NCBI GenBank assembly: GCA_903813345.2 | Contig: CAIIXF020000003.1 | Location: forward strand, 31,621,151-31,685,150 | Length of the DNA: 64,000 bases | Reading direction: 5' to 3' | Source: Owenia fusiformis | Lineage: Eukaryota > Annelida > Polychaeta > Sabellida > Oweniidae | Shown: in pieces, positions 5,820 through 36,900 of the stretch | Layout of the letters: every line of letters starts with the position of its first letter | Numbering within the stretch: position 1 is the first letter of the stretch | Position numbers and translations under genes: made by a program | Notes under the pieces: model-generated | The model's input: the letters and a program-made list of their open reading frames with translations, nothing else | Database searches by the model: none | What the model was told of the DNA's origin: nothing

Positions 5820-8800
5820 AATTGATTCCGACAATATTGAGGAAGCATGTACCAAAAATGCCAACCTAGCTGCTAGTCTAGGTCGTAAAGACCTTGCCCA
5901 GATGTGGTCAATGGTTGCCATAGCTAACAATAAAATGTTAAAACCTGGTGAAGATCCTGATAAAGGAGCACCATGGGCAATGTCACCATTCGGTCGGAAT
6001 CTCATAGAATCATTGTAAGTGTTCCATTAATTAATACGATTATGTGAATCGTTTTTAAATGTATGCCATACTTTAATGGATATCCTTTTCATTTGGGACA
6101 ATATTGTCGAGCAATAAATTTACTTTATTATAGCCTGTAATGAAAATCATGGAATATGAAGTAAGCGTAGCGAAGGGAAATGAATACCATTCCTAAAAAC
6201 AGCAACAAAAAATTCCCATGCAACCTAAAGCACTGCATGCAAAGTTTAAGTGTATCCCAGAAACAAATTTATACTGAACTTCTACTTAATTTGGTGGATC
6301 TGTCCACCGAATTAAGTAGCCGCCAAATTCCCCAGTGATTTTAGTACCATGTGAATTAGTACCATTTGTGCATTGTAATATGCCAAATGTTCAAAACAGC
6401 AAATCCACCAAATTAAGTAGCGCCAAATTAAGTAGAAGTACGGTAATCAAATATGGTCAATAGAAATTCTCAAGTATGGCATAAGAACTCTTCAATCCTG
6501 AGAAACAAAAGTTTTATAAATATCCTTGAATGATACATTTCTATTATACTGAACCCTTTCTTTCAGAATTGAGTATTATTCTAGTCTATATGATGTGCAA
6601 ACATTAGCCATGTTGTGTGCCGTGTTCAGCGAGAAATGTGACCCTCGCAACCCTCCAGTTCTCCCACCCACACAAATGAATCGATCAACATCACAGGTTC
6701 ATTTTATATCTTAAAGATGGTCTTTACCAGTGGTTTACTTTTACTTATTCTGCCATTTACCTGCTACACCCCAAATATTATCCAAATTTTACTTATCCTT
6801 AGCAATGATATCCATCAAAATCCAGGCCCTAGAAAAAATTTAGATCTTACCAATTTCCTTTTTTCAAATATAAATAGTATTAAAGCAAATGATAATAGCA
6901 GATTTAGTGCTTTAAAAGATCATATACATATTAACAATAGTAAAATTATTGGTTTGTGTGAAGTTGGAAACCTTTCAAATGAAGAAATTTCACATAACTA
7001 TTCTATTGATGGATTCCATGCACCAGTCTATTTAAATAAAAATCGTGGGTTATTAGTTTATATCCATGAAGATATTCCTTTCAAAATTAGGCATGACTGC
7101 ATGAATGACTTTGGTGATTCTATCTGGGTGGAAGTTAAAATCAATTTTAAATCAATTCTTTTTGGCACATACTATCGTTCACCATCTCAAAACCAAGCTG
7201 AGACTCAGGATTTTTTTAGTAGATTTTCCATTACATGTAGTAAATTGCTTCACTCTAAAATAGACTTAATGTTGATAAAAGGTGATTTTAATGCCAGGTG
7301 TAAAAGCTGGTGGGCATTAGATAATGAAAACTCAGCAGGTAAAATATTATATGATTATTCAGAGTCGTTAGGTCTTTTTCAACTTATAGATGAGCCGACA
7401 CGAGTTACAAATTTAAGTAGGTCATGTATTGATCTTTTATTTACAAACAACCCCGATCAAATAAGCAATACAACAGTTAAACCTCCAATTGGATACACAG
7501 ATCATAGTACTTTATCTACTGACTGTTGTTTTACTACTTTGAAAGAGGCGCCATACTCAAGACGGGTTTGGTACTATTCCAAAACAGATATTACATTACT
7601 TAACAGAACAATACGCGAAGCAAATTTGGAACAGTTAATAGAATCGGTAAACGATATTGATAACCTTGTGGAACAGCTTAGCGATAACCTTTTGAAAATA
7701 TTCTCTGACCTGATCCCAAACTCAGTAATTAAATTCAAATCCACTGACAAACCTTGGTTTAATGACAAAATTAAAACCCTGATAAATAAAAGAAATAAGT
7801 TACATTATAAATTTAGAAAAACCCATAACTTGACCTACCTTCAAAAATACAATGAACAATGCACAATAGTTGACAATGCCATAGAGGAAGCTAAGCAAAT
7901 TCATGATTCAAATTTGCGCCACAAGCTCAATTCGTATAAACATGGAAGCATGTCTTATTGGTCCATCATATCAAAACTTTTGGGAAGATCTAAAAATTCA
8001 AAAATACCGTTTTTGTTTGACCACAATGGAAATTGTATTTCCAGAGGCAATGAGAAGGCAAATTTATTTTTGGAACACTTCATAAAAAACTTTCATTTAG
8101 ATGGAGAAGCTGGAAATATTTCTTTGAATCTCAGAACTCCAAATCAAATTGACATACTTTCGACCCATGAATCCGAGATTTTTGAAATACTACTTTCATT
8201 AAACATAAATAAAGCAACCGGCCCTGACATGATAAGTAATAGAATGTTAAAAATGGCAGCACCAGCCCTCTCTCCCATTTTATCTAAACTGTTCAACAAA
8301 ATGTTTATTCTTCAAGCCTTTCCTCAAAAATGGAAAATTGGGCATATTTTACCTGTTCATAAAAAGGGTGATAAATCTAATATTCAAAATTTCCGTCCAA
8401 TCACGCTCCTTTGTTGTATTTCAAAAATAGCTGAACGTATCATTTTCAAACGATTATTTGACCATCTACTATCAAATGACCTTTTTTACAATCTTCAAAG
8501 TGGGTTTCTGCCAGGGCACAGCACTCAGGCTCAATTATTAAGCATTATTGATTTTATAACAAATGAAATAGAATCTGGGGGAAATGTAAGGGGGGTTTAT
8601 TTAGACATTTCAGCTGCGTTTGACACCTTACCTCATTCTTTGCTACTAAAAAAACTTGAATCTTATGGAATTGGCCCAAGTATTCTATCACTTTTAACAT
8701 CATATCTTTTTAAGAGACAAGCAAAAGTTATCCTTGATGGTCAAGAGTCTGTTTTGAGCGATGAGGATTATATAAATGCTGGCGTTCCACAAGGATCTAT

Positions 8801-11800
8801 TCTTGGACCCCTACTCTTCCTGATTTATATAAATGATCTCCCTGAAACCTTATCAAGCAAATGCTATATTTATGCAGATGACACATCTCTATACCAACCA
8901 TATTCCAAATCAAATCTCATTGAAAGTAACACAATTTTACAATCTGATCTTAATTCAATTTTCCAATGGTCCAAGACATGGAAAATGAACTTTAAGGCCT
9001 CTAAAAGCAAAGACATAATTTTCTCAAACCCAAGGAAATGTGAATATAACGTTCCTGACCTCAAAATTGGTAATGATGTTCTACCTCGAGTTGATCATCA
9101 TAAACATTTAGGTCTCATACTAGACAAACACCTAACTTTTGACCAACACATCACAGAGCTCACCAAGAGGATTGATAAACTATTAAACCCACTTAAATCT
9201 CTAAGCAACAAATTAAATGGAAAACACCTGGAATTAATCTTCAAATCTTTCATACTTCCAATTTTCGACTATTGCGATATTCTTTATGGTTGTGCAAATA
9301 TGAATAAATTAAAATCCATTGATCAATTATACTACAAAGCAGCCTGCATTTGCTCAGGTGTACTACATGGAACATCTTCAACAAAAGTCTTTAACTGCTT
9401 AAATTGGCCAAAGCTATCTGATAGAAGACAAATGCATAGACTTTTCCTGATGTACCGAGCTTACAACAATAAACTTCCATCCTACGTTTTGAGCATTTTT
9501 AATCAATATCGTAGAAATCTTCCATCAATAACACGAAGAAGTCGTGACTACCAAATTCCAATCAAAACCTCAACATTTTCAAATAGATCATGCGTATTTA
9601 AATCCATCATTGACTGGGAGTCTCTCCCACCCGAAATTAAAGAATCACCAAATCTAAATATTTTTAAATCAAATGTAAAGAAAAAATTAATGACTACTTA
9701 TATCATTAATTCCTCTGAGATCTCCTTGACAAGGAGCCAAGAAATTTCTCTGAACAAGGTGCGCTGTGATCTGATCTTCCAGTCCCATTTTTACGCCCAC
9801 AATTTTACTAATGTACCATCCCCTACATGCAAATGTGGGTATAGCAATGAAACATCCATTCATGTTATGTTCTCTTGTAACCTTAGATCACAATATCTTA
9901 AAGATTTAGAGGATGCACTTACTCTTCTAAATTTTAATTACCCAGCATTTAAAAACCAGCAAGACAAATTATCATTGTTTTTGTATGGAGACAGAAGTCT
10001 GCCAAAAGAAGTTAATATTGAAATTTTAAGGCTCACCTCAGCTTTTATTCAAAGGTGTGCAAGCGTGTAAGTATTTCTTCCACCACCAACTGTATAATTT
10101 TGTACACAATAATTCTTTTGCTTATTGCAAATTCATTGTCATACTTTCTTTTTAAATCTTGTTATTATTTAATTGTGGCTTATAATGCTTCATTGCAAAG
10201 CCGCAACATGTGTATGTAATAATTCTATTTTACTATGAAATAAATCAAATATAAAAAAAAAAAAAAAAAAAAAAAAAAACATCACAGGATCCTGCAGCTG
10301 TGCAAGTTGACGTGAGTGACCATTTTTAATTGATCATCGCAATAACTTCATAATTTTAAAATACATAAATTATACAATTTTTTAGTTAAAAATAATTTTT
10401 CAATATTAAATACAAAATGTACATATTTGCCTTATATGATATATGCATGTTCTGTAGTATTAGAAATAATTATCAATAGATAAATATAATGTTAAAACTA
10501 GTATAGTATTATTATAGAATATAACTATTTACCAACTTAGCGACTTTAATGTATTGGCTAATTGAAAATTCTATGTCAGATACATCATTGAGTGTAATAG
10601 GGAGAGAGTACCAAATGCCAAGTTAACATCATCAAGTTTTGTTTTTAGTGTGTTTTTATTATTGTTTGATTGTGGTTTTATGATTCAATAAATTTAGAGT
10701 GATTTCATATCGTCTTTGGATTCATAAATCTTAAACATCTAATTATGTCAATGTTATTTTTCCATGTACTCTGACTGTACTAAATTAACATTGGCATACT
10801 GTGTCTAAAAAACAGAATCAAAAATCATTCTATTATTTTTGTTTGCTTAATATTCATGCACCAAGCTTATATCAGGTTTGCCAGTCATGGAGATAGTCTT
10901 GGAACTGGCTAAAATGGGAAGGGAATTAAAGAATTTTAAGATTTGTCAGGGAAAAATTAGGGATTTTCGGTTTGATTTTGTTGTAGCAAACTCTGCTATG
11001 TGTATCCCCCTAACATTTAAAGGGAAGTTTAAAGTTTTAGGGGAGACCTGAATAGGCTTGGAGCAAGACTTATTTTTAGGGCAGGTTTTAGTTTATCCTC
11101 TACCTACCTTATTGCTTTTGCAATATTTATGATTTTTGTTGGGTTTTAGACCATTCTGAGTTTCACCATATTTACTGGAGTGTTGCCATGGTTACATTAT
11201 GCAGCTTAGCTATAGTTAAGTGAATGTGTGAAACCGGCACAGCTTGTGTTTATTTTATCATATATATATATGACATATGACATTATGTGGGGGTATGGTG
11301 CAAATAAATGGTAATAAGCATGCCTTAGTAATGTTTTTTAAGTGGAAAGCATACGAGTCTTAATTTTTTTTATTGCTGTGGAAATATTGTAAATAAAGCA
11401 CTGGATCCACTGATGTTGGTTTGTACATGGGATGGGAGATGTATGTTTTACAAAAATCAAAATCATATAGGCATGTGTGTCTGGCAACAGTTGCCTAGCG
11501 ACAATAAGTATGTTGCCATGGTTACCCTAAGCTTTGCATACCAGCGTGTGTGGCTTTTGTTTTAGACTGATTCTCACTACCTCACAATTCACTCCTCTGG
11601 TGTTAACTCCACCTGGAATATCAGTAAGTTGCTTTTCATTTTGCACGAAGGGGAGCCTTCAACAAGAAGGACTATGGTATAAGATGAACAGATCTCATTT
11701 GTTTCACTATTAAAACATGTTTAAATACACTGGCTGGCCCTTATGATGTTTACAATGGATTATAACAATGATTCAGGATAGTGTCACGCATACATGTTAT

Positions 11801-14800
11801 CAGGGATATGTCCATTTTACCTCATGTTCCATCTTCTGCCCGAAGATTCCTTATTGTAGTGCACTGAATTCACTTTCATTACCTTGCACATCCCAATGAT
11901 CTTCCTTGCACATAATAACATTTGTGATACCACCTTGATAGTCAAAGACTGTTATATCTATCCATTGCCTCTGAAACACTTCAAAAAACATTTTTGATCT
12001 AATTCCAATCAGTGTTCTCCAGTTTTTTCTCATGTTTGAATGGCTATAATGTATGGATATTGCAGCTGGTGATAGGAAAATTGCACTGTTATTAAATGGT
12101 CGGATCACAAAATTTGTTGGCTATGGGGATCATGCTATTTTACATAAAAATACTCAAAATCTCACTATGTATTTTAACTCAGATGTTTTAATATATAAAA
12201 GAAAACAGCATACTCCATGGTTCTTAGAATGTATATCATTTGCTGGTAACCTTCACTTTATTTTGAAGTCCAATAATGCAGGGAGTAAAAAATGGTGTCA
12301 GCCTACCATATGCAGCGCACGTTTCCGGTTTTAATGGCACAATATGGTGACTTGATAGTATTTGACAATGTTTACATTTGTAATCTTCAAAGCTCAGGAA
12401 GTAGTGAATAACAAAAATATATTGTAAACTCAAATGTTTTCTAGAAAGGTGCTTGTCTCTGGCCTTTATAATACTTTAAGTCATTTGAATAGTTTGAATA
12501 TATTCATGTACATGTACTTGTTTTGACTGCTCACCATATTACTAGGACCAAGTGCTTCTGTGATGGATATCCCAGTGTTAATGACCAGTTTAACATCATT
12601 AGGTAAGGTGACATCCCCATCCCTTCAAACATCTCTCTTTAAACCATGTGGTATTCATTTGAGACTATTGACATTAAAGGCATTCACTGATCACATTTAA
12701 TGAGACCAGTCAACGTGAATGTGTATGAAGGGATAGAGAGATGATCCTTTGAATGACACTAACCTGGCAGTCGTTGTTGGTTGTATCTGTCAATGATTGC
12801 TTAATTGGTTTCAAGTTCATATGCTTATAATCTTCTTATCCTTGGTATTGATGCTACTCGGGTTGTAATCTCCATGCTTGGATCTTACCTCTGATATTTG
12901 GTTCTGATTATTTGTTCTATCTCCTAATGCAGTTTTGTACTTTTTATGCTTGGCTGGATGAAACTTCTAATGCTTGATTTGTATTTTCTGGGATGTGTTT
13001 ATTGCATGAATGTAACTTTTGTTCTTTCATTTCTGATACTTGGCTTAAGGCATAGCAAGTTTAAGAAACAAGTCATTTACATTTGTGACACAACACAAAG
13101 GTAATCATCAGGTCAACATCATCAACATTCTTTTGGTTCTGAAGTCATTTTGGTACTCAATTCATTTAAGACGACCTTAATGTCCTCAGTGCGTTCAATA
13201 TAATAATTCACTTTATTACTTTTTGTGGGTGGTGCATTAACAAACATAATTCAGTGACTTAATTTTACCTAGTTTATTGACCAGAGTGCAACCACATGAC
13301 AAAAATATGTATTCCCGGGAAGTACATAACGTGACATGTGAAACTGTTCATTATGCCTGCATGTGGCTATGAGACTACACTACATTACACTACACTACAC
13401 TGCACACTACACTCAAGATGAACATGCTTCTAATACATGTAGGTTTATAAATGGACCATATTAAATCAGAAGATTTTATATCAAAGGGTATAATCTTTTT
13501 CCCAGGTAAAAAATGCAAAAGAAATATACAAAATACTTGCCACTGAAATAACTAAAAAATCAAAAACAATGTGGGTGTTTTTATATCCAATCAGGTAGGT
13601 ATCTATAGGTAGGCTAATTGTAGAGAGCATGCAGTTTATTACCCTGAGATGTTGCTTCTGAAAACACTTGTGTCTAGAAAAATCTAAGAGGAGTTTAGAC
13701 ATGAATCCATATTTTGATCAACAAAGCTGAATTATAATATACAATAATTTAGAATTTTCAGACAAAAATGTTGAAAATGCCATTTACCAATTTACCAAAT
13801 TTCACGTTCAAACTCATATTAGATCCTTCATGAGGCACTTAAAACACAGTTTCCAGAAATAACATGGAAGTGGTAGTTTGGGTGATGTTATACTTGGTAA
13901 ACATGGTAAAGTATGGGGTTGTCTACAGGGTGACCCAAAAACAAAACTGCCCAAAGTGTATTGTTTGGATCATCCTATATGTTTCTATCTCTCTGGCCTC
14001 TACTGCATTCTACATCTGTGGTTGCAATTTATATTATGTAAGTCTTGTTTCAAGCCATGCACCCCCATCCCTACACTCAAGCATGCCGTCATTGAATGAG
14101 GGATTATCTAGTGTGTGGGAGGGGGGCTTGTGCAAGTCTGGAAGCATTTTCTAATGTGAATATACAGGTGTATTTTAATGTGTGTGTTATTGTGTATTCT
14201 TATACAGCAGCCATACAACCCCTACCACACAATACACCCTTCTGATACATCACTGAAGGGGTGGGACTATAGTAAGTCAAACTACCATTCTCCAAGAGCA
14301 TAGTTTTGTCTTATAGTCTTAACTCTGCAGTAGGCAAATAAAAATGTTTGATTTTGATGAAAAGAGTGCTATAATACTAAACATCAATTTATTGTTAAAA
14401 ATATTCCTTGGTGATATTGAGTAAGAAATGTCATAAAACAGTTATATATTGGAACTCATAAGATATTATGCCTTCATCCTACTTGATATACATTCTATAT
14501 TATCACATTGAAAATAGTGCAGTTTATTTGCAATCTGCAGAGAAGTGAGGCATTTAGAGAAATCAATGCATTTTGGAGAATGACAAACTCTCCTCACTGG
14601 TGGTATACAGGGTGTCTCAAAAAAATGTACCCAAAAGTATATCAAGAGCACAGATAAACCAATCAATATTTTCAGACATTTTTTGCATGGTCATGTAGCC
14701 AAAACATGAAAGTTTTCTCCCCAATACACCATTTGTATTTCAGTCTTTTCTTTTTGATGCTTTAACCCTTTACCTTTTACAGCACATAATCGATGTAACC

Positions 14801-17800
14801 TCATATTTCGATGGCAGCCTGTATCCTTACTGCTACATTGTTCATCACATTTGATAATAATTCTGGTGGAATGTTTTGTAATTCTCTTTGGATGTTGCCC
14901 TTAAGTTGTTCTCAATCTTTTTGCTTGGAATGAGCATTAAAACACTCCTTCAAATAGCCACAGAGAAAGATGTTTGAGGATGACGACGGCAGAAAAAACA
15001 CAGACAATCAGGTCAATTATCGGCAAATGATTCAGGACCTACATTCCAGGGTTAGGCAGGCTTGCCTGGAGACCAAATGATATCCAAATGAAAGCACAGT
15101 GATCTCAAATTGATACACACAACAAAAGCAACACTAGAATCTCAACCAATGCAGTTTCTTGAACCTCTGACCTCTCTGTATAAGGGGGCTATAAGACATT
15201 GTGAGGGCCTCCCTATTCACCATATTTGACGGCCCATACTTTTTTCTGTGAGGCTATTTGCTAAACCCAAGCTAAGAGACCTAGAACAACTTAAGACCAG
15301 CATCCGAACAGAAATCAAAACATTCCACCGGAAATATCAAATGTGATGAACAATGTAGTAGTAAGGATGCAGACTGTCATTGAAATATGAGGTTACATTG
15401 AATATGTGGTGTAAAAGGTAACGGGTTAAAGTATCTAAAAGGCAAAACTGAATTAAAAACTGTATATAGGGGGAAAAACTTTCATCTTTTATCTACAAGA
15501 CCATGCAAAAAATGTCTGAAAATATTGATTGGTTTGTCTATGGTGTTGATATACTTTTGGGTACATTTTTTTGAGACACCCTATATATACGTTCTGTTGT
15601 ACCATGTCCAACCACACAGTACCATACCTACAACAAGGGGCTTTTCTGAATCATACAGTTCTACTTGGGTTGCACAAATATGGTAAAGTCCTTCATTGGA
15701 GCTATGAGACTATGTAATTGCACATGATTTGACAGGGCATTGATACCACCTTCCTCCTGGAGTATAGATGTTTGGGCTAAGCTTGTAAATTGTTTCTCTT
15801 ATCGTAGTACTTTGGGATTAATATTATGATCTCAGTTTCCTAAAAAAATCAAATGATCTCCAAAATTCAAAAATGCCAACATAACAACCCAAACATCAAT
15901 ATGATTGTCCCTTGTGTGGCAATTAGTAGATGTTTAAATCAAATCAAAATATGTTCTTATGTGAATTTATGTTCTTTGTGTTCTGTTTGTTTTTACAGCT
16001 AGAAGTTATTCTCAACTTACTGTTTTTCAATTGTTGCTTTCATTTGTGTGTAGTATGCTAAACAACTTGTTTGTTGACCTCCTGAGAACTCAATAGTAGT
16101 ATGTTGCTAGCTGTAAATTATTTTTTATTTTAATATGCATGCAAATATAGAGCAGTGTTCTGAATTCTTGAATTTTATTTTGATGAGTTAGAGTGGAGAT
16201 TTGAATTTTTTAAATTTTATTTTTTTGAAATACTATTATACTAGAAATAGCACAAATATTAATTTGCACTAAAAAGTCCTATTAACTACATTTAGAAGTG
16301 AATAATTGGTCTGCTGACAGAACTATTATCTTTTTAGTATTGTGTTCTTTCCAAGGTTAATTTACTGTATGTTAAAGCTGGACTGCGCTCCGAAACGCAA
16401 TCTTGGGTTGTTTCGGGGGTGAACTTTATCATTTTGAGCCTAATGAAAGATTATAGAATGATGAACAAATGGGGCAAATCTTGTGTAGAAATACTTACGA
16501 TAAATGTGTCATTTCAAAGATTATTCATTGAATTGCTTCGAGTCGGCGCCGACGATATGATTTTGGAAAAGTTTGTAAATGAAGAACGTGACGTCACTTC
16601 CGAATCATAGCATTCAAAATAAGTAGCGTTTAATTACTTCCAACATTCATTAGAAGACGGTGGTTTAGGGGTACAATTCTCGCTTAGAACGCGGGAGGCC
16701 CGGGTTCGAATCCCGCATTCGCCTTTTTATTTTTTTTAACTAAATGATTGTTCTTTGATATAACGCAGAAAAAAACAATTTTTATTTACATAAACTTTAT
16801 ATTAGAGCTTAAAAATGTAAAAACAATATATGTCAACATATTGCGTTTTGGAGCGATGTCCAGCTTTAAACTTCTGTGCAGCAAATGAACTGATTAATCT
16901 GAATATTTTATTGTAGTCATTTGCAGGGTGTCTAAAAATTCTTCTAATATTGACCATCTTATAATTTATTTGATTTGGTCTAAATGCATTTAAAATTTTA
17001 CTCATGGTATTTAAGGTGCAGTGAAGTTAAAACGATCAAGTAGTTGGACAGAAGCATTTGAAGATTATAACTACAACCAGGAACTTGGCTTTGGGGTGGA
17101 CAGTAAACAGCTTGAATTGGAACAACATGAAGCAAATATGCTGTAAGTCTCTTAGCTAAATTTAAATTTATTAAAAAATTGCAACTTATAATGACACTAA
17201 ATGTTTCCTTTGCTGACATTACTACACACTATATCAGCAGTGTACATGAATTCACATCTACTGAAAAAAACTCAATCTACTAGTGTCAACTGACTATAAA
17301 TACTCTACATACTTCATGTATTTCAGTATACTTGATCCTGCAAAGAGACATCAATATGACGCCTTTAAAAAAGCCTACGCCAACATTCTCTATCAGTGGG
17401 GTTTGATGGAACAGCGAAATGAGATATTGAAGTTTGTTTCTACACCCCCTGAACCACACAAAGGAATAGGTAAGATTCCAGGATTTGCTGAGGTGACATT
17501 GTTTGAATATAGATGGGGTAAAATGCAGACCATAAAACACTTCTAAAAATAAATGTTATGATGTTATATCACCATGCATTTGTTCTAATCGCAGAACCCA
17601 GCCAAAAAGTTTCAAAGCAATTATACGTACAGTTATTTTTATATCATCTTAAATAAGTGTGAAACTAAGCAAGTATATATATATTTAAAGCTGCTGTTTG
17701 CCTCGAAACGCAATCTAGGGTTGTTCCGAGGGTGAACTTAAGGATTTTGAGCTTAATGAAAGATTATACAATGATGAGCAAATGGGGCAAATCTTTTGTT

Positions 17801-19814
17801 AAAATACTCAAGATAAATGTGTCATTATAAAGATTGTTCTTTGAATTGCTTCGATTGTCAGCATCGATATGATATTTGGAAGGTTTCTAAATTTAGAACA
17901 TGACGTCACTACCAAATTAAGTAGTGTTTAATAACACGACTTGTACGTACTAAACTGGTAGCTCAGCAGTGGAATGCTTCCTGAGTATGCAGGCGGCTCG
18001 GGTTCGAATCCTGCGCAAACATTTTTATTTTTTAAATAAATCATTGTGCTTTGATATTACGCAGAAATAAACAATTTTTATTTACACCAACTTTATACTA
18101 GAGCTTGAAAATGTAAAAATAATATACATTCAACATATAAGTCAACATAGTCAACATATTGCGTTTTGGAGCGATGTGCAGGTTTAATATGGTATTAAAA
18201 TATTCCTAAAAATGCATTCATAGAAGTAGACTTTCTTAAATTATGATAATAAATAAAAATCATCACTCATGGATAGAATATTGTTCTTGTTTTAATTCAT
18301 TTTAAATTGTATATATTATTGGCAGTTGTCGGCAAACTGTAATAAAATGCTTTATGTTTAATTTTCCAGAGTTTGTGACTGTATGTCATCATTGTAGAAA
18401 GGAAGTGCGTGGGGCCCAATGTGGCAGTTGTAAATATGCTGGTCTGCAATGTTCTATATGCCATATAGCGGTCAAAGGTAATGAGATACATGTATAGTAC
18501 ATGTAGGAATTTCTTTAATAGAATAGACTGCTGAGACATCGTCCTTTTGCTGTCATGAGGTATTTGCACTACTTTTGGCTCTAGTTAAAAGTGGGCGAAA
18601 AAGGTCATTTATAATGATTCATTATAACACATCTTTGATGAGAATTTAAATCTAAATCCGGGTAAAGTTTAAATCATCAAGATCTCTATTTTTTAGTTAA
18701 AGTCCCCGTCTAAAGTTTGAAAATATTTTTTTATCATTCATTTACTATTTGTCATGACTTAAAAAGTTATTCTAGAGATTTTTGAAAGAAAAAAAAATTT
18801 GGGAAAAAAAGTTGTGAGCATTTCATTTCTCAAATATTCAAATTTCCCGCCATTTTTCAAAAAAAGTTGAAATTTTTTAATCATCAAATATTTCTTAATG
18901 CATTTCGAAAAAGATTATCTTTTTAACACCAATGCAAAGATTGATCAAAGGACACACCATTTCAATAATAAAATGCCATATTTAATGGGCCACTTCAATG
19001 TTTTAGCATATCAAAAATATTTTGCACCAGTAGTGATGTCACTAAGGTACCCATCATTTTTTAAAAAAAATTGAAATTTTTTTTCTGATGTCAATCTTTT
19101 CTAAATATGCTAGACTTCAATAATATACCAATGTTGTTTGTCTAACCAGGTTAAAAGGAAGAATATATTATGTTTTAGATATCATTGTACCATTGGTTTC
19201 TATGAGAACTAGAATTTTTAAATGCATTTTTCTTGGAACCATTTTCATGCACTGATAAGTTCATTTCTCGCTTATTTATGAACCAATTTTCTTAATTTTT
19301 TCGGCAAAAAACATGCGAGGATGAATGCTATGCATTGGTATGAGTTGTGGCTAATTAAAAGATATGTGTGACCTCTAAAAGTTAGTTTTAAATAAATTCA
19401 CAAATTTTGGAACAAAAAGTCCATCAAAAACCACTTTTTGAAATTTAAAAAAAAAGTTTCACATATCACACTTTAATAACATTGGGTAAGACTACAATAT
19501 AAGCCAAAGTGGTTTAAACTTTAGATGGGGACTTTAAAAATAAGCCAAAACAAAATTAGTGGACCTTATCAAGTCAATGAACATGTTCAAAGCTCAAGGT
19601 CAAAATCTAGGTCAAAACTAGTCACCAAGTATTAATCTTACACTAACTGTCTTAATATTTTTCAGGATCGTCTAACTTCTGCCTGTCCTGTGGCCATGGT
19701 GGACATACTGGGCATATACTAGACTGGTTTCAAACACATGATGTATGCCCAACAGGGTGTGGCTGCTCTTGTATTGACACATATTCTGGACACTTTAGAG
19801 ATAAATATGAATAG
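5820..19814 (+). CDS. WDR59: WDR59, GATOR2 complex subunit (C-terminal exons; disrupted by a LINE)
   Basis: WDR59 is a subunit of GATOR2, the lysosome-associated complex that relays amino-acid sufficiency to TORC1. Exons read in consistent phase are 5820-6014, 6567-6696 resuming at 10288-10311 after a LINE, 11566-11623, 12546-12602, 14208-14271, 17022-17142, 17327-17469, 18370-18477 and 19666-19814 (stop TAG 19812-19814). The first exons carry EACTKNANLAASLGRKDL and APWAMSPFGRNLIESL. Later ones carry LDPAKRHQYDAFKKAYANIL and PPEPHKGIEF. The last two encode the zinc-binding RING-like end, with CHHCRKEVRG, CSICHIAVKG, SNFCLSCGHGGHTGH and CPTGCGCSC. The N-terminal WD40 repeats lie left of the window or were not recognised. 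Exon 12546-12602 ends in phase 1 but 14208 needs phase 0, so at least one small exon between them is unplaced (a weak candidate is 13057-13102). Without splicing of the LINE the protein stops a few codons past the insertion and loses the zinc domain. Confidence 0.92.
6272..6445. mobile_element. Short MITE with TACNGTACTTCTACTTAATTTGG ends
   Basis: The left end is TACTGAACTTCTACTTAATT. The right end is the complement, CCAAATTAAGTAGAAGTACGGTA, preceded by an extra ATTAAGTAGCG repeat. It is 174 bp, non-coding, and lies in a WDR59 intron. The element at 38118-38421 shares the AATTTGGCG subterminal motif. Confidence 0.75.
6687..6697 (+). repeat. Left target-site duplication of the LINE
   Basis: AACATCACAGG at 6687-6697 recurs at 10278-10288 after the poly-A tail. 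The leading A residues of the right copy merge with the tail, so the certain duplication is CATCACAGG. The bases left and right of it join into an open WDR59 exon. Confidence 0.9.
6698..10277 (+). mobile_element. Non-LTR retrotransposon (CR1/jockey-like LINE), nearly intact
   Basis: A sense-strand LINE of about 3.58 kb lies between perfect target-site duplications inside a WDR59 coding exon. It has about 20 bp of leader, one 1117-codon ORF, a short 3' UTR with AATAAA near 10239 and a pure A tail of roughly 27 nt. The intact frame, clean tail and unmutated duplications show a recent insertion. No ORF1 is present, so it is either 5' truncated just before ORF2 or belongs to a single-ORF lineage. 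Confidence 0.95.
6717..10070 (+). CDS. LINE ORF2: AP endonuclease and reverse transcriptase
   Basis: The 1117-residue open frame would nick the target and copy LINE RNA by target-primed reverse transcription. A hydrophobic leader (residues about 4-33) ends in SNDIHQNPGP. The endonuclease spans about 40-240, with LIKGDFNARCKSWWALDNE and the final GYTDHSTL. The reverse transcriptase spans about 490-770, with PVHKKGDKSNIQNFRPITLL, GVYLDISAAFDTL, NAGVPQGSILGPLLFLIYIN and the catalytic YADDTS. Near the C-terminus is a knuckle-like CKCGYSNETSIHVMFSC (CxC, then H x4 C), as in jockey/CR1-group ORF2. There are no internal stops or frameshifts, so it may be active. The start is the first ATG after the junction. 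Confidence 0.95.
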   Translation: MVFTSGLLLLILPFTCYTPNIIQILLILSNDIHQNPGPRKNLDLTNFLFSNINSIKANDNSRFSALKDHIHINNSKIIGLCEVGNLSNEEISHNYSIDGFHAPVYLNKNRGLLVYIHEDIPFKIRHDCMNDFGDSIWVEVKINFKSILFGTYYRSPSQNQAETQDFFSRFSITCSKLLHSKIDLMLIKGDFNARCKSWWALDNENSAGKILYDYSESLGLFQLIDEPTRVTNLSRSCIDLLFTNNPDQISNTTVKPPIGYTDHSTLSTDCCFTTLKEAPYSRRVWYYSKTDITLLNRTIREANLEQLIESVNDIDNLVEQLSDNLLKIFSDLIPNSVIKFKSTDKPWFNDKIKTLINKRNKLHYKFRKTHNLTYLQKYNEQCTIVDNAIEEAKQIHDSNLRHKLNSYKHGSMSYWSIISKLLGRSKNSKIPFLFDHNGNCISRGNEKANLFLEHFIKNFHLDGEAGNISLNLRTPNQIDILSTHESEIFEILLSLNINKATGPDMISNRMLKMAAPALSPILSKLFNKMFILQAFPQKWKIGHILPVHKKGDKSNIQNFRPITLLCCISKIAERIIFKRLFDHLLSNDLFYNLQSGFLPGHSTQAQLLSIIDFITNEIESGGNVRGVYLDISAAFDTLPHSLLLKKLESYGIGPSILSLLTSYLFKRQAKVILDGQESVLSDEDYINAGVPQGSILGPLLFLIYINDLPETLSSKCYIYADDTSLYQPYSKSNLIESNTILQSDLNSIFQWSKTWKMNFKASKSKDIIFSNPRKCEYNVPDLKIGNDVLPRVDHHKHLGLILDKHLTFDQHITELTKRIDKLLNPLKSLSNKLNGKHLELIFKSFILPIFDYCDILYGCANMNKLKSIDQLYYKAACICSGVLHGTSSTKVFNCLNWPKLSDRRQMHRLFLMYRAYNNKLPSYVLSIFNQYRRNLPSITRRSRDYQIPIKTSTFSNRSCVFKSIIDWESLPPEIKESPNLNIFKSNVKKKLMTTYIINSSEISLTRSQEISLNKVRCDLIFQSHFYAHNFTNVPSPTCKCGYSNETSIHVMFSCNLRSQYLKDLEDALTLLNFNYPAFKNQQDKLSLFLYGDRSLPKEVNIEILRLTSAFIQRCASV
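10312..14207. other. WDR59 introns, mostly unique AT-rich sequence
   Basis: Apart from exons 11566-11623 and 12546-12602 I see no other supported gene. The short ORFs at 11851-12433 and 13481-13702 lack splice context. A (ACTAC)n-type simple repeat lies at 13372-13413. A stretch starting CAGGGTGACCCAAAAACAAA near 13927 looks like a mariner-type end without a partner. Confidence 0.5.
14606..15586 (+). mobile_element. Degenerate Tc1/mariner-type element
   Basis: The left end is TACAGGGTGTCTCAAAAAAA and the right end is its complement, TTTTTTTGAGACACCCTATA, flanked by TA. The inverted repeats extend inward over 80 bp (CAATCAATATTTTCAGACAT near 14658 against its complement near 15515). Between about 15200 and 15300 a broken frame resembles the PDLTPLDFFLWGYL segment of mariner transposases and the following helix. 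Many stops and frameshifts make it a fossil. Confidence 0.75.
16376..16865. mobile_element. TTAA-flanked MITE carrying a tRNA-like module (copy 1)
   Basis: The ends AGCTGGACTGCGCTCCGAAA and the complement of TTTTGGAGCGATGTCCAGCT form an inverted repeat of about 28 bp, with TTAA on both sides (16372-16375, 16866-16869). It is 490 bp and encodes no protein. The interior holds a tRNA-like Pol III module at 16653-16723 followed by T runs. A second copy at 17689-18183 aligns over its whole length. Confidence 0.88.
16653..16723 (+). other. tRNA-Gly-like sequence with altered anticodon, inside a MITE
   Basis: The A box TGGTTTAGGGG (16661-16671) and B box GGTTCGAATCC (16703-16713) are followed by TTTTTATTTTTTTT. 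The core AATTCTCGC, then GCGGGAGGCCCGGGTTCGA, closely matches animal tRNA-Gly(GCC). The anticodon stem CTCGC/GCGGG pairs, but the loop is TTAGAAC, giving AGA in place of GCC. The 5' and 3' acceptor strands (AAGACGG and ATTCGCC) do not pair, so a functional tRNA is unlikely. Pol III transcription remains possible. Confidence 0.8.
17689..18183. mobile_element. TTAA-flanked MITE carrying a tRNA-like module (copy 2)
   Basis: The ends are AGCTGCTGTTTGCC and TTTTGGAGCGATGTGCAGGT, with TTAA at 17685-17688 and 18184-18187. It aligns with copy 1 throughout (for example AATGAAAGATTATA, CAAATGGGGCAAATCTT, GATAAATGTGTCATT, CATGACGTCACT). The exception is the central tRNA-like block, which is far more different than the rest. 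Confidence 0.88.
17953..18020 (+). other. Second, different tRNA-like sequence inside a MITE
   Basis: The A box TAGCTCAGCAG (17959-17969) and B box GGTTCGAATCC (18001-18011) are followed by ATTTTTATTTTTT. The A-box side resembles tRNA-Ala-type heads known from SINEs (GGTAGCTCAG), unlike the Gly-type body in copy 1. The acceptor strands AAACTGG and GCAAAC do not pair and the anticodon arm is imperfect, so it is not a functional tRNA. Confidence 0.75.
18701..19533. mobile_element. TTAA-flanked MITE (family AGTCCCC)
   Basis: The left end AGTCCCCGTCTAAAGTTT and the complement of AAACTTTAGATGGGGACT match at 17 of 18 positions. TTAA flanks both sides (18697-18700, 19534-19537). The 833 bp interior is AT-rich with no coding capacity. 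It lies in the last WDR59 intron. Confidence 0.85.
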
Positions 19815-20304: not shown

Positions 20305-22746
20305 TAATCACGCCCGGTGATCGTGAAAATGGGACGGAGGGGGGAGCAGGCAATTTCCGCAAGAAAATTCAACAAATCTGGTAAAATTACTTTTTCGAGA
20401 CAGAGTTTACGATTGAATTGCAAATTGAATAAGCACACGGTATGATAAAATATGTTAGGTATTCTAGGATTATTTTTGTACCGATACTCTTTTAAGATAT
20501 AAGATCTATTAAACAAGAACACAAATGTGTACAAAATGTCCCCACCAAGTGGTGATCCCGTGAAATGGTTATCCTGAAAATGAGTAGACAAGACTTTACC
20601 AACACAATTTGAGGACGGAAAATCCAAAGTGGCCACCTTAAAATTTACCCAGAATGCCAAAAAGAAAACATGTAAACAAGACTTTACAGACAAGATTTCA
20701 GGATGGAAAATCCAAAATGGCTGCCTTGACATTTACCAAGAATGTCAAAAAACTAATCTGTTTGTAGATTTTCATACTAAGAATCATCCCTGAAAATATG
20801 AAATTGATCTACCAAACGGTTCAACTGAAAACGGGTAGACAAGACTTTACAGACAAGATTTTAGGACAGAAAATCCAAAATGGCTGCCTGTACATTTACG
20901 CAGAATGCAAAAAAAGTAATCAGATGTAGATTTTCATACAAAGAATCATCCCTGAAAATTTGAAATTGATCTATCAAACCGTTCACCTTAAAACGCGTAG
21001 ACAAGACTTTACAGGCAAGATTTTAAGACGGAAAATCCAAAATGGCTGCCTTGACATTTACCCAGAATGCAAAAAAACTAATCAGTTCTAGATTTTCATA
21101 CTAAGAATCATTCCTGAAAATTTGAAATTGATCTACCAAACAGTTCACCTGAAAACGAGTAGACAAGACTTTACAGACAAGATTTTAGGATGGAAAATCC
21201 AAAATGGCTGCCTTGACATTTACCCAGAATGCCAAAAAACTAATGAGATCTAGATTTTTATACTAAGAATCATCCCTGAAAATTTGAAATTGATCCACCA
21301 AACAGTTCACCTGAAAACGCACAGACAAGACTTCACAGACAAGATTTTAGGACCGAAAAATCCAAAATGGCCGACAATAAAAAAGTCCTTATGAGTTTTT
21401 GCTGATTTCTTTTTACAAAATTATCACATATAACTACTGTTAACAATAAAGTAGGCTTTTACAGCAAAGTACATCTGAAATTATCTATAAAGCTACTAAA
21501 TAGTTAAAGTATGAAAACTCAAAAACACCATTCAATATGATACAAAGTATTATCGCGCGCTAACTTTTCTTAAGACATTCAAAATGGCTGACATGACTGA
21601 GCTAGCAGGTCCAAAACCTAATCAGATCTAGAATGAAGTGAGCTGAACAAGATGTTAAAGTTTTAAAAGCAACTGTGAAGCAGTTTTTCTTAAAGTTTGC
21701 AGACAAGGATTTTAGCATTTGACTTCAAAATGGCCGACAGGAAGTAGGTATTAAGTTAAAATTTTTTCGTCCACATCTGTATGCACTCATAAGTTATCCC
21801 TGAAAATTTGAAGGTGATATCTGTAGCGGTTTTCGAGAAAACTGCCGGACGTACGGACGGACAGACGGACGGACGGACAGACGGACGGACGGACGCGCCT
21901 AGGCCGACAATATGGCCCCACACTATGTGGTGTGGGGACATAAAAAGGCGCAACGCAACCAACGTGCAAAGGTCAACGTTTTTGCTATAAATCAAGCAAC
22001 AATGGCCTACACGACCTGTAATAAATACTTATCATAACTAAATTAATGTCATTGCTGAATTTATAAAATAAGTTTCCATACGTAAAATAAAAAATAATCG
22101 AAAATAATTAAAATGGGACGGAGGGGGGAGGGGACGGAGGGGGGGGAGTAATAATTCTATAAAGTGAAACAACTTCACATGAATTCTTGTATTTGAAAAA
22201 TGAACTCATTAACTTAGTAAGAAACTGGATGATATACCCCTGGAGACTGAAAAATGGGGACATTTGGAGTAAAAGGACTTAAAGTCGCGAAACATCTCTA
22301 ATCATGTCTTATATACATATTGCTCCCCCCCTCCGTCCCCTCCCCCCTCCGTCCCAAATTCATTATTTTCGATTATTTTTTATTTCACATATGGAAACTT
22401 ATTTTATAAATTCAGCAATGACATTAATTTAGTTATGATAACATCACTTACAAGTATTTATTACAGGTCGTCCAGACCATTGTTGCTTGATTTATAGCAA
22501 AAACGTTGATTTGTGCCTGTTGATGGCCTTGCGCCTTTTTTAATAGATCTCATACCTTAGATGCGTATCGTTTCAGAAAAAATCCCAGAAAACCTAACAT
22601 ATTCTACCATACCGTGCGCCTATCCATTTAGCAATTCAATAGTAAACTTTTTCTTGAAAAAATAAATCTTCCAGATTTGTTGAATTTCCTAGCAGAAATT
22701 GCCTGCTCCCCCTCTGTCCCATATTCACGATCACCGGGCGTGTTAA
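20305..22746. mobile_element. Large foldback element with about 420 bp arms
   Basis: The outer ends are TTAATCACGCCCGGTGATCG and the complement CGATCACCGGGCGTGTTAA. The right arm (about 22320-22746) is continuous. The left arm is the same sequence split into 20305-20515 and about 21945-22145 by a nested 1.4 kb insertion. Arms include GGGACGGAGGGGGGAG blocks and TTTTTGCTATAAATCAAGCA. The arms diverge by a modest number of substitutions. No transposase was seen; the ORF at 20304-20732 (-) is arm sequence. Confidence 0.85.
20516..21944. mobile_element. Element nested in the left foldback arm, with 160 bp tandem units and a GGAC tract
   Basis: The ends read ATGTCCCCACCAAGTGGTG and the complement of CACTATGTGGTGTGGGGACAT. 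Inside, units of about 162-168 bp start at GAGTAGACAAGACTTTAC (near 20584, 20831, 20999, 21161, 21322), each with AATCCAAAATGGCTGCC. The right part holds CCTGAAAATTTGAAGGTGATATC, then a (GGAC)n tract at 21848-21897. The uninterrupted right arm of the host foldback supplies the empty site GATCTATTAAAAAAGGCGCA. Confidence 0.75.
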
Positions 22747-24394: not shown

Positions 24395-24860
24395 GAAGAG
24401 TTCATGATGTGTCTACTGTCTTATTACTATGCTGTTTGAACCATCATTGATGGCCTGGTTTGATGAAGATGTGCTGTGTCACCTGGTTTGTTTGAGTTCA
24501 TGATGTGTCTACTGCCTTAGTACCATGCTGTTTGATCCTTCACCCATGGATTGATGAAGATGTGCCTGGTCACCTGGTTTGTTTGAGTTCATGATGTGTA
24601 TGCTGTTTGATCCTTCATTGATGGCCTGGTTTGATGAAGATGTGCTGTGTCACCTGGTTTGTTTGAGTTCATGATGTGTCTACTGCCTTAGTACCATGCT
24701 GTTTGATCCTTAACCCATGGATTGACGAAGATGTGCCTGGTCACCTGTTTTGTTTGAGTTCATGATGGGTCTACTGCTATTATGCTGTTTGATCCTTCAC
24801 CCATGGCCTGGTTTGATGAGGTTGTGCTGTGTCACCTGGTTTGTTGGAATCTGTTGCGTA
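24395..24860. repeat. Tandem repeat, about 80-95 bp units, five copies
   Basis: Units start at GAGTTCATGATGTGT near 24399, 24494, 24586, 24665 and 24757. Each continues with TACCATGCTGTTTGATCCTT and GATGAAGATGTGC, then TCACCTGGTTTG. The ORFs crossing it (24750-25104 +) have no homology I recognise. Confidence 0.8.
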
Positions 24861-25543: not shown

Positions 25544-28500
25544 CTAAAAATGTGAATATGCCACAAAATAATAAATGATGAGAGCTAGAACCAGGATGAA
25601 ACCAGCTAGAATGTACAGGAAGAGACCAATTCCACCTTCCTGGAAGTAGAGAATACAAACAAGTCATAAGCAACATTTTTTTTTAGATATTCAGGATGTA
25701 GAAAATGTACAATTGAGATTGAAGATTAGTTGAAGGCAATTTAAACAACAATATTATTTCTCACTATTCTCAACTTATTCCAATATAATGATAGAAATAA
25801 CACTTATTTGAGGGGGTGTATCCCACATGAATATAAAAGAAAATCACACTTACTTCAGGGGGTGTATCCCAATATTTATCACAGTCTAACTTGGAGCATA
25901 TTGCATCTGTTAATTTATCTGAAAACATTTATATGTATCAGCTCAATGTCACGAGAAAGCATGGTTCATGACAATAACTGCTATGGATACTGGTTATTGA
26001 ATTTTGATATTGGTTTGTACATTTAAGGAATGACGATTCTATAATTTATGGCGCAATATTACCAGAAATTTCAATCTGTTCATTGTCAAAAGATCGAAAT
26101 TGTGTAGCGGTTTTTGACAATGGCCAGAACAAAATATGGCCATATATTTGCCATAAATCATAGAATCTAGGTCTTTTTACGATTCGATTCTAATATGATA
26201 AACAAACCAGAAAAACCAACTTTTAGCATTGTTATGTCACATATCATATTAGAATTGGAGATACATCATTAGAAATATATGCTGTGTCCCAAAATAAGCT
26301 CTCATATCAAGAGGCTTGTTCTATATTGCCTCAAAGATCTCAAAGTAAATGATCATTTCAACCAAATAACTAAATTATGACTACTTACTATAAAATTCTC
26401 TGTTCTGTATGCTGCTCAAATCTGGTGGCACACATTTTTTTAAAGATTCCTAAAATGTAAAAGGTTTTGCATCATGGACAATACCAGAACAACGGCAACG
26501 CCAAAGCGTAGCGAATCCCATCGAACAGAAATGGCTGGCATTTTTACAAACGAAGCGCAAATATCATAAAACAACACACCAGAAAGGCCACCATTTTCAA
26601 AATGGTTGCTCACTTAAGCCAAGTTGTCATCAGAAGAAATAATATGCTTTTAAGAAGCCACCTCTAAAATTTTTTGAAAAATCGCACACATACTTGTAAA
26701 ATAACACACGTAAAAATGGTGGCCATTTTTCAAAATGGCCGACTACTCCCCAAAGTTTTATTAGACAATGTGCTATGCTTAAAGTATTCACATATCAAAT
26801 ATGAACAAAATCGCTCCACTACTTTTCGAGTTATAGTAAAATACGTTAAAATGGCGGCCATTTTTCAAAATGGCCACCTTCTACCAAAAGCGTCATTAGA
26901 AATAGAAGGTGTTCCATGCTTATATAGTATTCACATACCAAATATGAACAAAATCGCTCCACTACTTTTTGAGTATTAGTAAAATACGTTAAAATGGCGG
27001 CCATTTTTCAAAATCATTTTCAAAATGGCCGCCTTCTACCAAAAGTGTCATAGGACAGTGTGCCATGCTTATAGTATTCACATACCAAATATGAACAAAA
27101 TCGCTCCACTACTTTTCGAGTTATAGTAAAATACATTAAAATGGCGGCCATTTTTCAAAATTGTTTTCAAAATGGCCGCCTTCTACCAAAAGTGTCATAG
27201 GACAGTGTGCCATGCTTATAGTATTCACATACCAAATATGAACAAAATCGCTCCACTACTTTTCGAGTTATAGTAAAATACGTTAAAATGGCGGCCATTT
27301 TTTAAAAATGGCCGCCTTCTACCAAAAGTGTCTTTAGACAGTGTGCAATACTTATAGTATTCACACACCAAATATGAACAAAATCGCTCCACTATTTTTA
27401 GAGTTACAGCAAAAATCGTAAAATGACGAGTAAAGGCCGCCATTTTTCAAGATGGCTGCCATGTGCTTTTTAATATCTACATTTGTAGCATTATTAATGT
27501 CCTTTATAATTTTTTTTACATTTAAAACATATTGCTATTACAGTTTTACATATTGCACCTAAATTACTGTAAAATCGTCACTAAAATGGCCGCCATTTTG
27601 AAATGAGCGGCCATTTTGAAAATCGGCTTTCGAGCAGAACTTCTATCCTCATAGGGTATATGTGTACGAAATATGAACAAAATCGGGCCAACGGTATTTG
27701 AGTTATTGCCCGGACGGACGGACAGACGGACGGACGGACGTACGGACGGACGTACGGACGGACGGACGGAGGCGTTCCCTATATCCCTCCGAACTTCGTT
27801 CGATGGGATAATAAAAACACTCCTGTTTAAATGAATAAAAGTCCATTCTCTTTGATTTATTTTAAAAATTAAAAAAAATGGGCTCAATGTGGCATTAGAG
27901 AGGATATAGACAACAGTTTTGAAAAAATCATCACATTTTTAAAATATCTTTTGCTTTCATCCTTCCATGTCAATTCTAATGGATTTGGGCATCTCTTTGA
28001 TAACTTGATCAGATATCTCAGTTTTTTTAGATTATGAAAAAAAGATTGCTTCCAACATTTCATGCTCTACAGTTTGAGCAATAAATAATTAGTCTAATTA
28101 TTAGTCACAGATTTGCTGAAGTGACTACTCATTTATTTATTGCTCAAACTGTATGTCCCTTCTAATTCCTTAAGATATTCAAAATCAAGCAGGAAATCAG
28201 TTGGTGAATAAATATCATGAAATTAACTACGACACCAACCTTGCACTTAGTATGTTTATTTTTCATTTCTTCGTGTTTACACATGACCATCGACCAATAA
28301 TCAGGTTTCTTGATCCCCATTATGATGTCACAACGGAATATATCACAGTAGTCGGCCAAACATACTGAAGTTGGGCCCTGCAATAAGAAATAAAATATGA
28401 CTTATTACATGATAGCATTTTTAATCAATCAATGCTACATTGACGCAAGGTAAAGTAAATCAGAAAATAAACACATTTTAATCAACTATTTTAACAGTAA

Positions 28501-33900: not shown

Positions 33901-36900
33901 GAAACAAACTAGAATAACTTATAACAATATGTCTGATTGTTTACTATATGTAGTTGAATGTTGAAGGTCATTTTGTAGATTCTCCGGCACTGGGTGACAG
34001 ATATGAGAAGATTGTGACACTCATACAAGACATGAAACGTGACATCCTACCAGCCTCAGTGGGCAACAGGGGGTCAACAGAACGTCTTAAACGCAGTAAG
34101 TAGCAATGCAAGGTGTTTCATGAATACATGTGTATATTATTATATAAGTGCAGAAGTAATTTATGGAATGGAACCACAATACGATTCAATTTATTTCAGA
34201 TTTAGAAATTAAAGCATGATTGTTCCTGACATAAAATCATGGAAATGCAAGCATTAAGCCAGATATTAATGATTAACCAAACTACATTTACATATTTAAA
34301 TAATTTAATGGCAATATTTACTCTTGAAAGCTCAGCTAAAATGTCAATTTTTTCATCAATGAATGAAGGATCTAGGCCTACTTTATTTTTCCCTGTAGAT
34401 TAAATCTTATTGACATTCAGTGTTCTGCCGAATCAGGGGCCCATTAACAGAACCTTCTTAAAGTTCAGAATTCGTAAAGTCCATTGTTCTCTATCTATGA
34501 GGTCATCATATCCATGGTTACAACAATTGATATACGATTTCGTAACTTTACCACTCCCCCCAGTTTTCTGCAAGTTAAAATGCTCAATTCTGCAAGTGAA
34601 ATTAGTGAATTCTGCAAGAAGAAAGGGCTAATTCTGCAGAAATTCCGCGGATATTCGCGGCATTTTTTCGATCAATAACTTAATAATATAAATAACTGTT
34701 ATTAATTTATGTCTTTGTTTAACTTTCTGACGAGAACCGAAAGAAAAACTAATGGTTTTCGAACCAGTAAACGGGAAAATATCGTGATAGTCAGGTAGTC
34801 AGTCACTACATACATGCTGCCATCTAACGGCAGAAATCAAACGATGGCGTTTAGAATTTTCACTTCGCATAATTTGGGTTATTTCTGCAAGGGATTTGAC
34901 TGAAAACGTGTCAAATTGTTACAGGTAAGACTGACTTTTTAAACTTTTGGAAAATATATGGATTCTGCGGAAAATTCCGCGGAAATTGACCAAAATAGTT
35001 GATTCTGCAATTCCGCGGGCAGAGGCAAATTCCGTCCGCGCTCTGCAAACACGGAAACCTGGGGGCAGTGCTTTACGAAGTTTCTGTTAATGACCCCCTG
35101 ATTGTTACTTCCACACTTTATTTCAGAGATTACACTTGCTGAAGATCTGATCAAAAACAAATTGGGAGAAGCTGGAACTGATCATCATGAAACATCCAGC
35201 AATAAGAACAACTCTAATGATGTTCAACACAATCCAGCCATCCTGGATGTAAATACAAATGTTGTTGATGAGGCACATGCTTCTGGGCCACCTCTATTTC
35301 AATCAAATGATCTACAATATGAGAATATCCTGACAAGGTGTTACGATGAAGCTGATAATACTGCTATCTTTCCTTCAAATGATGTCTTGTCTATTTCAAA
35401 GAATGAGAGCATGGGAGGGCTCAATGAGCAAGCTTGTGAAGTTGTTGAGAAGAATATGACATGGAGCCCAAATGAGGAGGCGATTGATCTAAGCATACGG
35501 ACTGTGAGGGGCCTGAATGCAAGAGCTCATGAAGCTGCAATAAATCTAAGTTATATTGCTGAAAAAGGGACCAACACTAAACAAGATACTTGCAGATCCA
35601 AGGCATTTGTTAGCTCTCCACATGTGTACACAAAGAAACTATGTACCAGTACACAAAATGATGAAAAGGAACCTAATGGTGGTGAATGTGATGGAGAGAT
35701 CATCAAGGCTGCCCAGAATGAACTTACAGATGATAGCGACATTCCAACATCATTTGATGAGGTGTCCAGTTCTACAGGAGATACCCCACTGGTGAATGAG
35801 GCAAGGGTGAGTTTATGTTTTGCAAAAATGTTTTCTTCGCAAATACTGTTCATAAGCTGTTCAGGTTTCTGAAATCATCAAATTTAAGTTTCAAATTATG
35901 AACCCTATCTGCCTGATCCACTTTTTGAAATTTTATTTTATTTTTTTCTTTTGAAAATTGCACTTTCTACAAAATAGTTTCTCCAAAAGAGGGTTGTAAG
36001 AAAATTTTTTTCACTCTTTAAATGCTCATGGGAATTCTTTTTGAGGGTCTCTTTATGAACCCCTCGTGAGCGAAAAGATTCTGATGCATCGAAATTGCTA
36101 ACAAGGCATTAACATGACACAGTGTCATGTTAATGTTGCTCACAATATTATTAGTTCAATCCTAAGTCAGATTTGAATTTCTGAGAACTTGTAGATGATT
36201 TTTGAAAAAATGCTCAATTTGAAGCAAGTTGAAAAAAGACCTTTTTGACCCTGAGGCGAGGAGGTCATTGAAGGTGACATCTCATATCTAATATCAGATT
36301 TGAACTTTTGAGAACTTGTAGATGATTTTGGTCAATTTGAAGCAAATTGAAAAAACACCTTTTTTCACCTTGAGAAGATCATTGAAAGTCAAATCTAAAG
36401 TCAGATTTAAACTTCTGATAACTTGTACATGATTTTGAAAAAATTCGGAGCAAGTTGAAAAAATACCTTTTTGACCTTTTTAACCTTTCTTGACCTTGAA
36501 AAGGTCATTGGAGGTCAAATCTTGATTATAAAGCCAGATTTGAACTTCTGAAAACTTGTAGATTATTTTGAAAAAATTGAAGTCAGTTTAAACAGTATTT
36601 TTTAAGTTATTGGAAGTTGTAAGAATCTGTTACAGAAGCCAACAGCCGATCACCAACCACCAACCGCCGCCACAAAAAACAGAGACCAAAACAATATGTC
36701 ACCACCTTTCAATTGTTTGTGAGTATCTCCTTTTCGTAAGGAGCAGCCATAAATGATAAAGGAAGAGTATAAAGAAAACAGAAGGAAAACAATTTTCCTC
36801 TTTATAAAAGCCCATGGGGCGCTCATTTTGAGAGCTTTCAAATCACATTTTCAAGAATCTCTGCAATAATATACCATAACATGCAATATACCATAATGAT

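Follow-up and report, generated by a model that had tools for sequence, protein, structure and literature searches.

Precise intron gain by insertion of a transposon into the sequence AGGT is described in a review whose table credits transposon insertion with 35 intron gains, in Oryza, Drosophila, Oikopleura and Zea (PMC3443670). Introners, likewise, take their splice sites from target-site duplications (TSDs), have median lengths of 30–654 nucleotides (nt) and are mostly consistent with DNA transposition (Gozashti and others, PMC9860276), and insertions of LINE-1, a long interspersed nuclear element (LINE), are described as causing exon skipping (PMC12934576). Here we describe a LINE in the gene WDR59 of the annelid Owenia fusiformis, within a 64,000-nt stretch of contig CAIIXF020000003.1 (assembly GCA_903813345.2, positions 31,621,151 to 31,685,150 of the forward strand; hereafter the window, numbered from its first letter). 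We find that a real and recent LINE insertion with a TSD, on the same strand as the gene, interrupts a coding exon, and that taking it out as a GT-AG intron restores that exon to the base. We consider it likely that this is an ordinary gene-breaking insertion of a 5′-truncated LINE, that the geometry is coincidental and that the allele is crippled.

As in the precise AGGT model, the duplicated target supplies both donor and acceptor, and the coding sequence is unchanged on removal. The locus differs from that model in that the empty target site (CACAGGATCC) reads AGGA and not AGGT, that the T of the new donor GT is LINE sequence adjoining a GG microhomology, and that there is no polypyrimidine tract. 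With the Introners it shares a mobile element in an exon and splice sites taken partly from the TSD, whereas Introners recur in many genes and here we see one 3.6-kb LINE whose other copies follow no splice-friendly target rule. The LINE-1 exon-skipping cases also involve a fresh LINE in a coding exon, and a disturbance of splicing is predicted here as well, but skipping of the interrupted exon (exon B, 154 nt) would shift the frame, and such skipping was rejected as a rescue for that reason. The titles and abstract openings surveyed named no such intron derived from a LINE, though published cases may exist.

The insertion, with its TSD and its poly-A tail, is far beyond chance. The LINE lies in coding exon B of WDR59, in the orientation of the gene, and is flanked by perfect 9-bp repeats (CATCACAGG), the right one directly following a tail of 27 uninterrupted As (Table 1). 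Its long open reading frame (ORF) contains an apurinic-like endonuclease (APE) domain (PF14529, E 1.5e-10, above the cut-off; a match to PF03372, E 0.00015, falls under its own cut-off) and a reverse transcriptase (PF00078, E 2.1e-31), and the element matched four solved sequences, namely an RNA-directed DNA polymerase (8c8j) and three R2 retrotransposon proteins. Endonuclease, reverse transcriptase, and an A-rich tail with TSD at dispersed copies, many of them 5′-truncated, are as in the APE-type retrotransposons without long terminal repeats. The original prediction of a fresh LINE with a real TSD in a WDR59 coding exon is borne out by these data. It had set the limits at 6687–10288, of which the right end stands; the left TSD copy starts at 6689, and the earlier start arose because the As at 6687–6688 are indistinguishable from the poly-A tail. 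The GG at 6696–6697 is also the LINE family's own sequence at that place (...CTTTGG/TTCAT, the slash marking the border), which leaves up to 2 nt of uncertainty in the left border.

Table 1. Features of the WDR59 locus and of the inserted LINE (window positions; a slash marks a splice border).
Feature	Position	Strand	Evidence or remark
WDR59 exon A, 195 nt, preceding the interrupted one	5820..6014	+	open; human WDR59 match; native acceptor and donor
WDR59 exon B, 5′ part, 130 nt	6567..6696	+	WDR59 match, frame
Left TSD copy CATCACAGG	6689..6697	+	creates potential donor CAG/GTTCAT at 6697
5′-truncated LINE copy (endonuclease, reverse transcriptase, poly-A tail)	6698..10279	+	domain, copy and TSD evidence
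In-frame TAA, end of WDR59 when the LINE is retained in the mRNA	6712..6714	+	
LINE ORF, 1,117 codons and stop (PF14529, PF00078)	6717..10070	+	ATG at 6717
LINE AATAAA	10239..10244	+	strand of WDR59
LINE poly-A tail, 27 nt, pure A	10253..10279	+	
Right TSD copy CATCACAGG	10280..10288	+	creates potential acceptor CATCACAG/G, last intron base 10287
WDR59 exon B, last 24 nt (8 codons, DPAAVQVD)	10288..10311	+	native donor GAC/GTGAGT at 10312
WDR59 exon C	11566..11623	+	phase-0 native acceptor, could pair in frame with the new donor
WDR59 exon D	12546..12602	+	frame and splice sites
WDR59 exon E	13050..13111	+	donor CAG/GTCAAC and boundary placed from the frame
WDR59 exon F	14208..14271	+	genome match, splice sites, frame
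WDR59 exon G	17016..17142	+	human WDR59 match, splice sites, frame
WDR59 exon H	17327..17469	+	human WDR59 match, splice sites, frame
WDR59 exon I (zinc-binding C-terminus begins)	18370..18477	+	human WDR59 match, splice sites, frame
WDR59 exon J with stop codon (19812–19814)	19666..19814	+	human WDR59 match, frame

Judged from its sequence, the insertion is very young. A search with 401 nt of the LINE 3′ end gave 40 scored matches, the best of 91 candidates, and among these at least 25, including the window copy, are 97–100% identical over all 401 nt. We fetched 29 of the 39 other copies among the scored matches (numbered with an L prefix); compared with 18 of these, the window copy has private bases at 4 of 3,552 columns, each column being covered by at least three other copies (median 6). 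L005 and L010 also keep the full-length ORF. These figures point to a recently active family. With 403 nt of the 5′ end as query there were 27 matches, of which five, including the window copy, begin at the window copy's first base. Four relatives (L005, L010, L014 and L027) share at least 813 nt upstream of this base, with L010 and L027 sharing about 1,160 nt, and all four read ...CTTTGG before TTCAT. As the relatives continue upstream with shared sequence that the window copy is without, the latter is 5′-truncated, not a full-length element with its 5′ region. We also observe that L020 and L024 (C2, about 27.02 and 27.05 Mb) are the same insertion with near-identical flanks, some 37 kb apart, which suggests a recent segmental duplication.

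The host gene is identified by its conceptual C-terminal part, which matches human WDR59 of GATOR2 (7uhy_D) with E 9.6e-88 in phmmer. The alignment covers query residues 4–96 and 191–359, the second stretch including the zinc-binding C-terminus; the insertion point falls within the unaligned residues 97–190. Spot checks of the exons further upstream used four stop-to-stop stretches picked by eye, two of which match human WDR59; the other two do not match it. In a genome search with the conceptual protein, 10 of 12 matches lie at the LINE locus, and the apparent stops within some of them were, where inspected, intron sequence past exon ends. A second WDR59 copy that could buffer a loss was sought among the same matches and none was found, the off-locus ones being a 46% match on C7 (query 307–362, E 6.4e-7) and one on C2 with E 1.77. 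No empty allele or second haplotype was found with a 131-nt exon query, which has one match in the 498-Mb assembly. As a minor point, the frame through exon E appears to be held only by the weak donor CAG/GTCAAC, not by the stronger AAG/GTAATC 11 nt before it.

The LINE sits 24 nt (eight codons) before the native donor of exon B. Removal of 6697–10287 as a GT-AG intron joins TCACAG to GATCCT and gives an open exon B of 154 nt (IEYYSSLYDV...NRSTSQDPAAVQVD), and without the LINE the joined exons, starting at 5820 and closing with the stop at 19812–19814, form one open frame of 371 codons. The claim that exact removal restores the gene is therefore right to the base, and exons that are open once the LINE is left out are what is expected after a recent hit. 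With the LINE retained, WDR59 reads STSQ-VHFIS-stop, and as had also been foreseen, an unspliced allele would lose the zinc-binding C-terminus, with translation ending at the TAA listed in Table 1.

How often such geometry arises by chance was measured by sliding TSDs of 7–13 nt along the concatenated WDR59 exons and along the window. With the observed LINE start, an exact GT-AG arrangement is expected in 1.7–3.8% of same-strand insertions (about 1 in 26 to 1 in 59), with random LINE starts in 1.2–3.3%, and for antisense insertions in 2.3–6.1%. TSDs from 17 of the 29 fetched copies could be used; of the others, L003, L004, L005, L007, L008, L010, L013, L014, L019, L021 and L027 had no trusted repeat, were rearranged or had no true 5′ end that we could find, and L024 is the same insertion as L020. 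The GT-AG geometry is present in 1 of the 17 on the sense strand (L018, the least certain of the set, with its repeat 57 nt past the element end) and in none of the 17 in antisense, which argues against targeting of splice-like sites by this LINE family. The readable TSDs of other copies are varied, and a common target ending in AGG was rejected as a rule of the family. The exact geometry at WDR59 is within ordinary chance. Separately, the TSD of L018 (ATTCAATCAGGTCTTA) contains AGGT, and roughly 30 nt of extra sequence lie between its poly-A and the TSD.

Neither of the two new splice sites comes near native strength when scored together with ten donors and ten acceptors of WDR59 on a human-type splice matrix. 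The new donor CAG/GTTCAT scores −2.4 against −0.5 to 5.8 for the ten donors examined, which represent nine junctions, one being the alternative donor for exon E; the lowest is CAG/GTCAAC at 13112, placed from the frame. The new acceptor scores −6.6 against −3.5 to 6.7. Better-scoring decoys are numerous: 29 of the 134 GTs in exon B and the LINE outscore the new donor, and 111 of the 160 AGs within the LINE outscore the new acceptor. Across the window, the new donor is equalled or exceeded by 25% of 3,161 GTs and the new acceptor by 65% of 3,254 AGs. Two reservations already attached to the original prediction, that the donor GTTCAT is weak and that the acceptor follows a poly-A tract instead of a polypyrimidine tract, are upheld, as the donor lies under all ten donors examined and the 27-A tail stands directly before the TSD acceptor. 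What is not upheld is a reading of the locus as a likely new intron, against which stand the chance frequency of the geometry, the target AGGA, the weakness of both sites and the many better decoys in the LINE.

We suggest the following course of events. A recently active LINE family would have inserted a 5′-truncated copy by endonuclease nicking and target-primed reverse transcription, in gene orientation, into a stretch of WDR59 coding exon that appears to be unconserved linker, and the LINE 5′ end was probably joined at the 2-nt GG microhomology. The exact GT-AG arrangement would then be a coincidence, produced by a repeat ending in AGG followed by the T of the LINE. Most transcripts of the allele most likely retain the LINE or terminate at its poly-A signal, and WDR59 would then most likely stop after STSQVHFIS without its C-terminal zinc-binding domain. 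Normal WDR59 mRNA would be lost from the allele, which we expect to have a low population frequency. What the haploid assembly took up is probably a young variant, either loss-of-function or hypomorphic and possibly heterozygous.

The opposite view, that an animal intron has been caught at birth and that a 3.6-kb LINE with an intact frame is removed via the TSD-made donor, either exactly or with a native acceptor at a cost of eight codons, is in our estimate a minority one and rather unlikely, the form with the eight-codon loss being the better of the two. In that form, the new donor at 6697 would pair with exon C's own acceptor at 11566, the LINE would become part of an enlarged existing intron, and DPAAVQVD would be lost in frame from a linker. 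Because 24 nt of exon B follow the LINE and the exon has a phase-0 end, this junction keeps the frame, and the joined product (6696/11566) is open; the exon C acceptor scores 3.6, only one weak site is required rather than two, and the lost residues fall within the part of the query that does not align to human WDR59. SAFB proteins in human cells are described as holding LINE-1 RNA within introns where it is long, A-biased and of the same strand (PMC10901741), and the LINE here is A-rich on its sense strand (35.0%, tail excluded), which could invite similar treatment, though for this animal SAFB action would be by analogy with human only. The route must nevertheless use a donor that scores below every WDR59 donor examined and is equalled or surpassed by a quarter of the GTs in the window, on a LINE that brings a same-strand AATAAA, and we regard it as improbable. 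Still less probable, in our view, is the exact phase-0 intron 6697–10287 of the original prediction. It has in its favor that GT and AG stand at matching places of the two TSD copies and that removal restores the frame, and it has precedents in the published model of precise gain via a duplicated target site (PMC3443670) and in Introner families whose two splice sites both come from the place of insertion (PMC9860276), but it needs two weak sites, an acceptor beaten by most AGs of the LINE and a poly-A stretch in place of a polypyrimidine tract, and its geometry is that of some 2–4% of same-strand insertions, at AGGA and not AGGT.

An assembly error or chimeric join that placed a LINE copy in the exon is very improbable. 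Many near-identical LINE copies can confuse assembly, but a perfect 9-bp exon repeat on both sides together with pure poly-A is the mark of a real insertion and not of a mis-join, and the window copy has four bases unseen in the other aligned copies. SOS splicing requires terminal inverted repeats that pair in the mRNA. The LINE was rejected as an SOS-splicing substrate (PMC13247085), since the 13 imperfect inverted pairs listed for 6650–10330 include none that pairs the element ends.

Several points weigh against an ordinary gene-breaking insertion, and we set them out together. The case for it rests on sequence, and efficient splicing of the allele could occur. The splice matrix is not trained on this genome, and the frame-placed donor of exon E, CAG/GTCAAC, is itself weak. 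The upstream part of exon B has 11 GTs, and one alone, at 6638, outscores the new donor, which is thus among the best within its exon. A branch-like TACTATG lies at 10231–10237 with no AG between it and the TSD acceptor, so use of this acceptor is not impossible. Survival of the allele in a gene that is expected to matter would favor some rescue, and heterozygosity is a guess, as the assembly shows no empty allele. Were the LINE spliced out, living carriers would allow intron birth by a LINE to be measured, perhaps with the two alleles compared directly. Otherwise, the locus is one more instance of an active LINE family striking a coding exon, and it cautions that a geometry permitting exact removal is frequent enough to arise by chance in genome scans.

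The coding part of the LINE has further features. The TAA that ends the WDR59 frame lies two bases 5′ of the LINE ATG (TAAAGATG, 6712–6719). Upstream of the ORF, L010 and L014 have a frame that stays open for more than 100 codons in phase with it, while in L005 a small length difference shifts this upstream frame, which ends at the equivalent of the same TAA. L014 also has a 100-codon open stretch about 0.85–1.15 kb upstream of the element start (...EVAHRLRQSPAHQDKPRPMIVRFNSRKKRDALL...), which we take to resemble a LINE ORF1. The ORF itself opens with a hydrophobic, signal-like stretch (6717–6830) that ends in SNDIHQNPGP, and a signal-like N-terminus ending in NPGP is shared with LINEs that carry an N-terminal 2A-like motif. 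The form D(I/V)HxNPGP is present in the window copy and in 11 of the 12 related copies read (L005, L010, L014, L027 and L037–L044), L027 having NQGP; the variants are DVHLNPGP in L037–L042 and DVHPNPGP in L043 and L044, and the H is kept across three sequence groups. The 2A consensus D(V/I)ExNPGP has E at the position where this family has H (PMC4981915), and by that consensus the motif is not that of a 2A/StopGo element.

Elsewhere, ARAGORN reported no tRNA in the 64-kb window. Candidate tRNA-derived heads of short interspersed nuclear elements, with GGTTCGAATCC boxes read by eye, lie at about 16655–16722 and 17955–18022, and SNORD36 is matched at borderline level at 36189–36260 (E 0.95; 30.1 bits, the gathering score being 30). 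Tandemly repeated arrays, their units some 35–330 nt long, are found at 20584–21371, 24398–24845, 26862–27425, 49793–50921, 57862–58640 and 60071–60315, and those at 26862 and 60071 have AAAATGGCCGCCTTCTACC in common.

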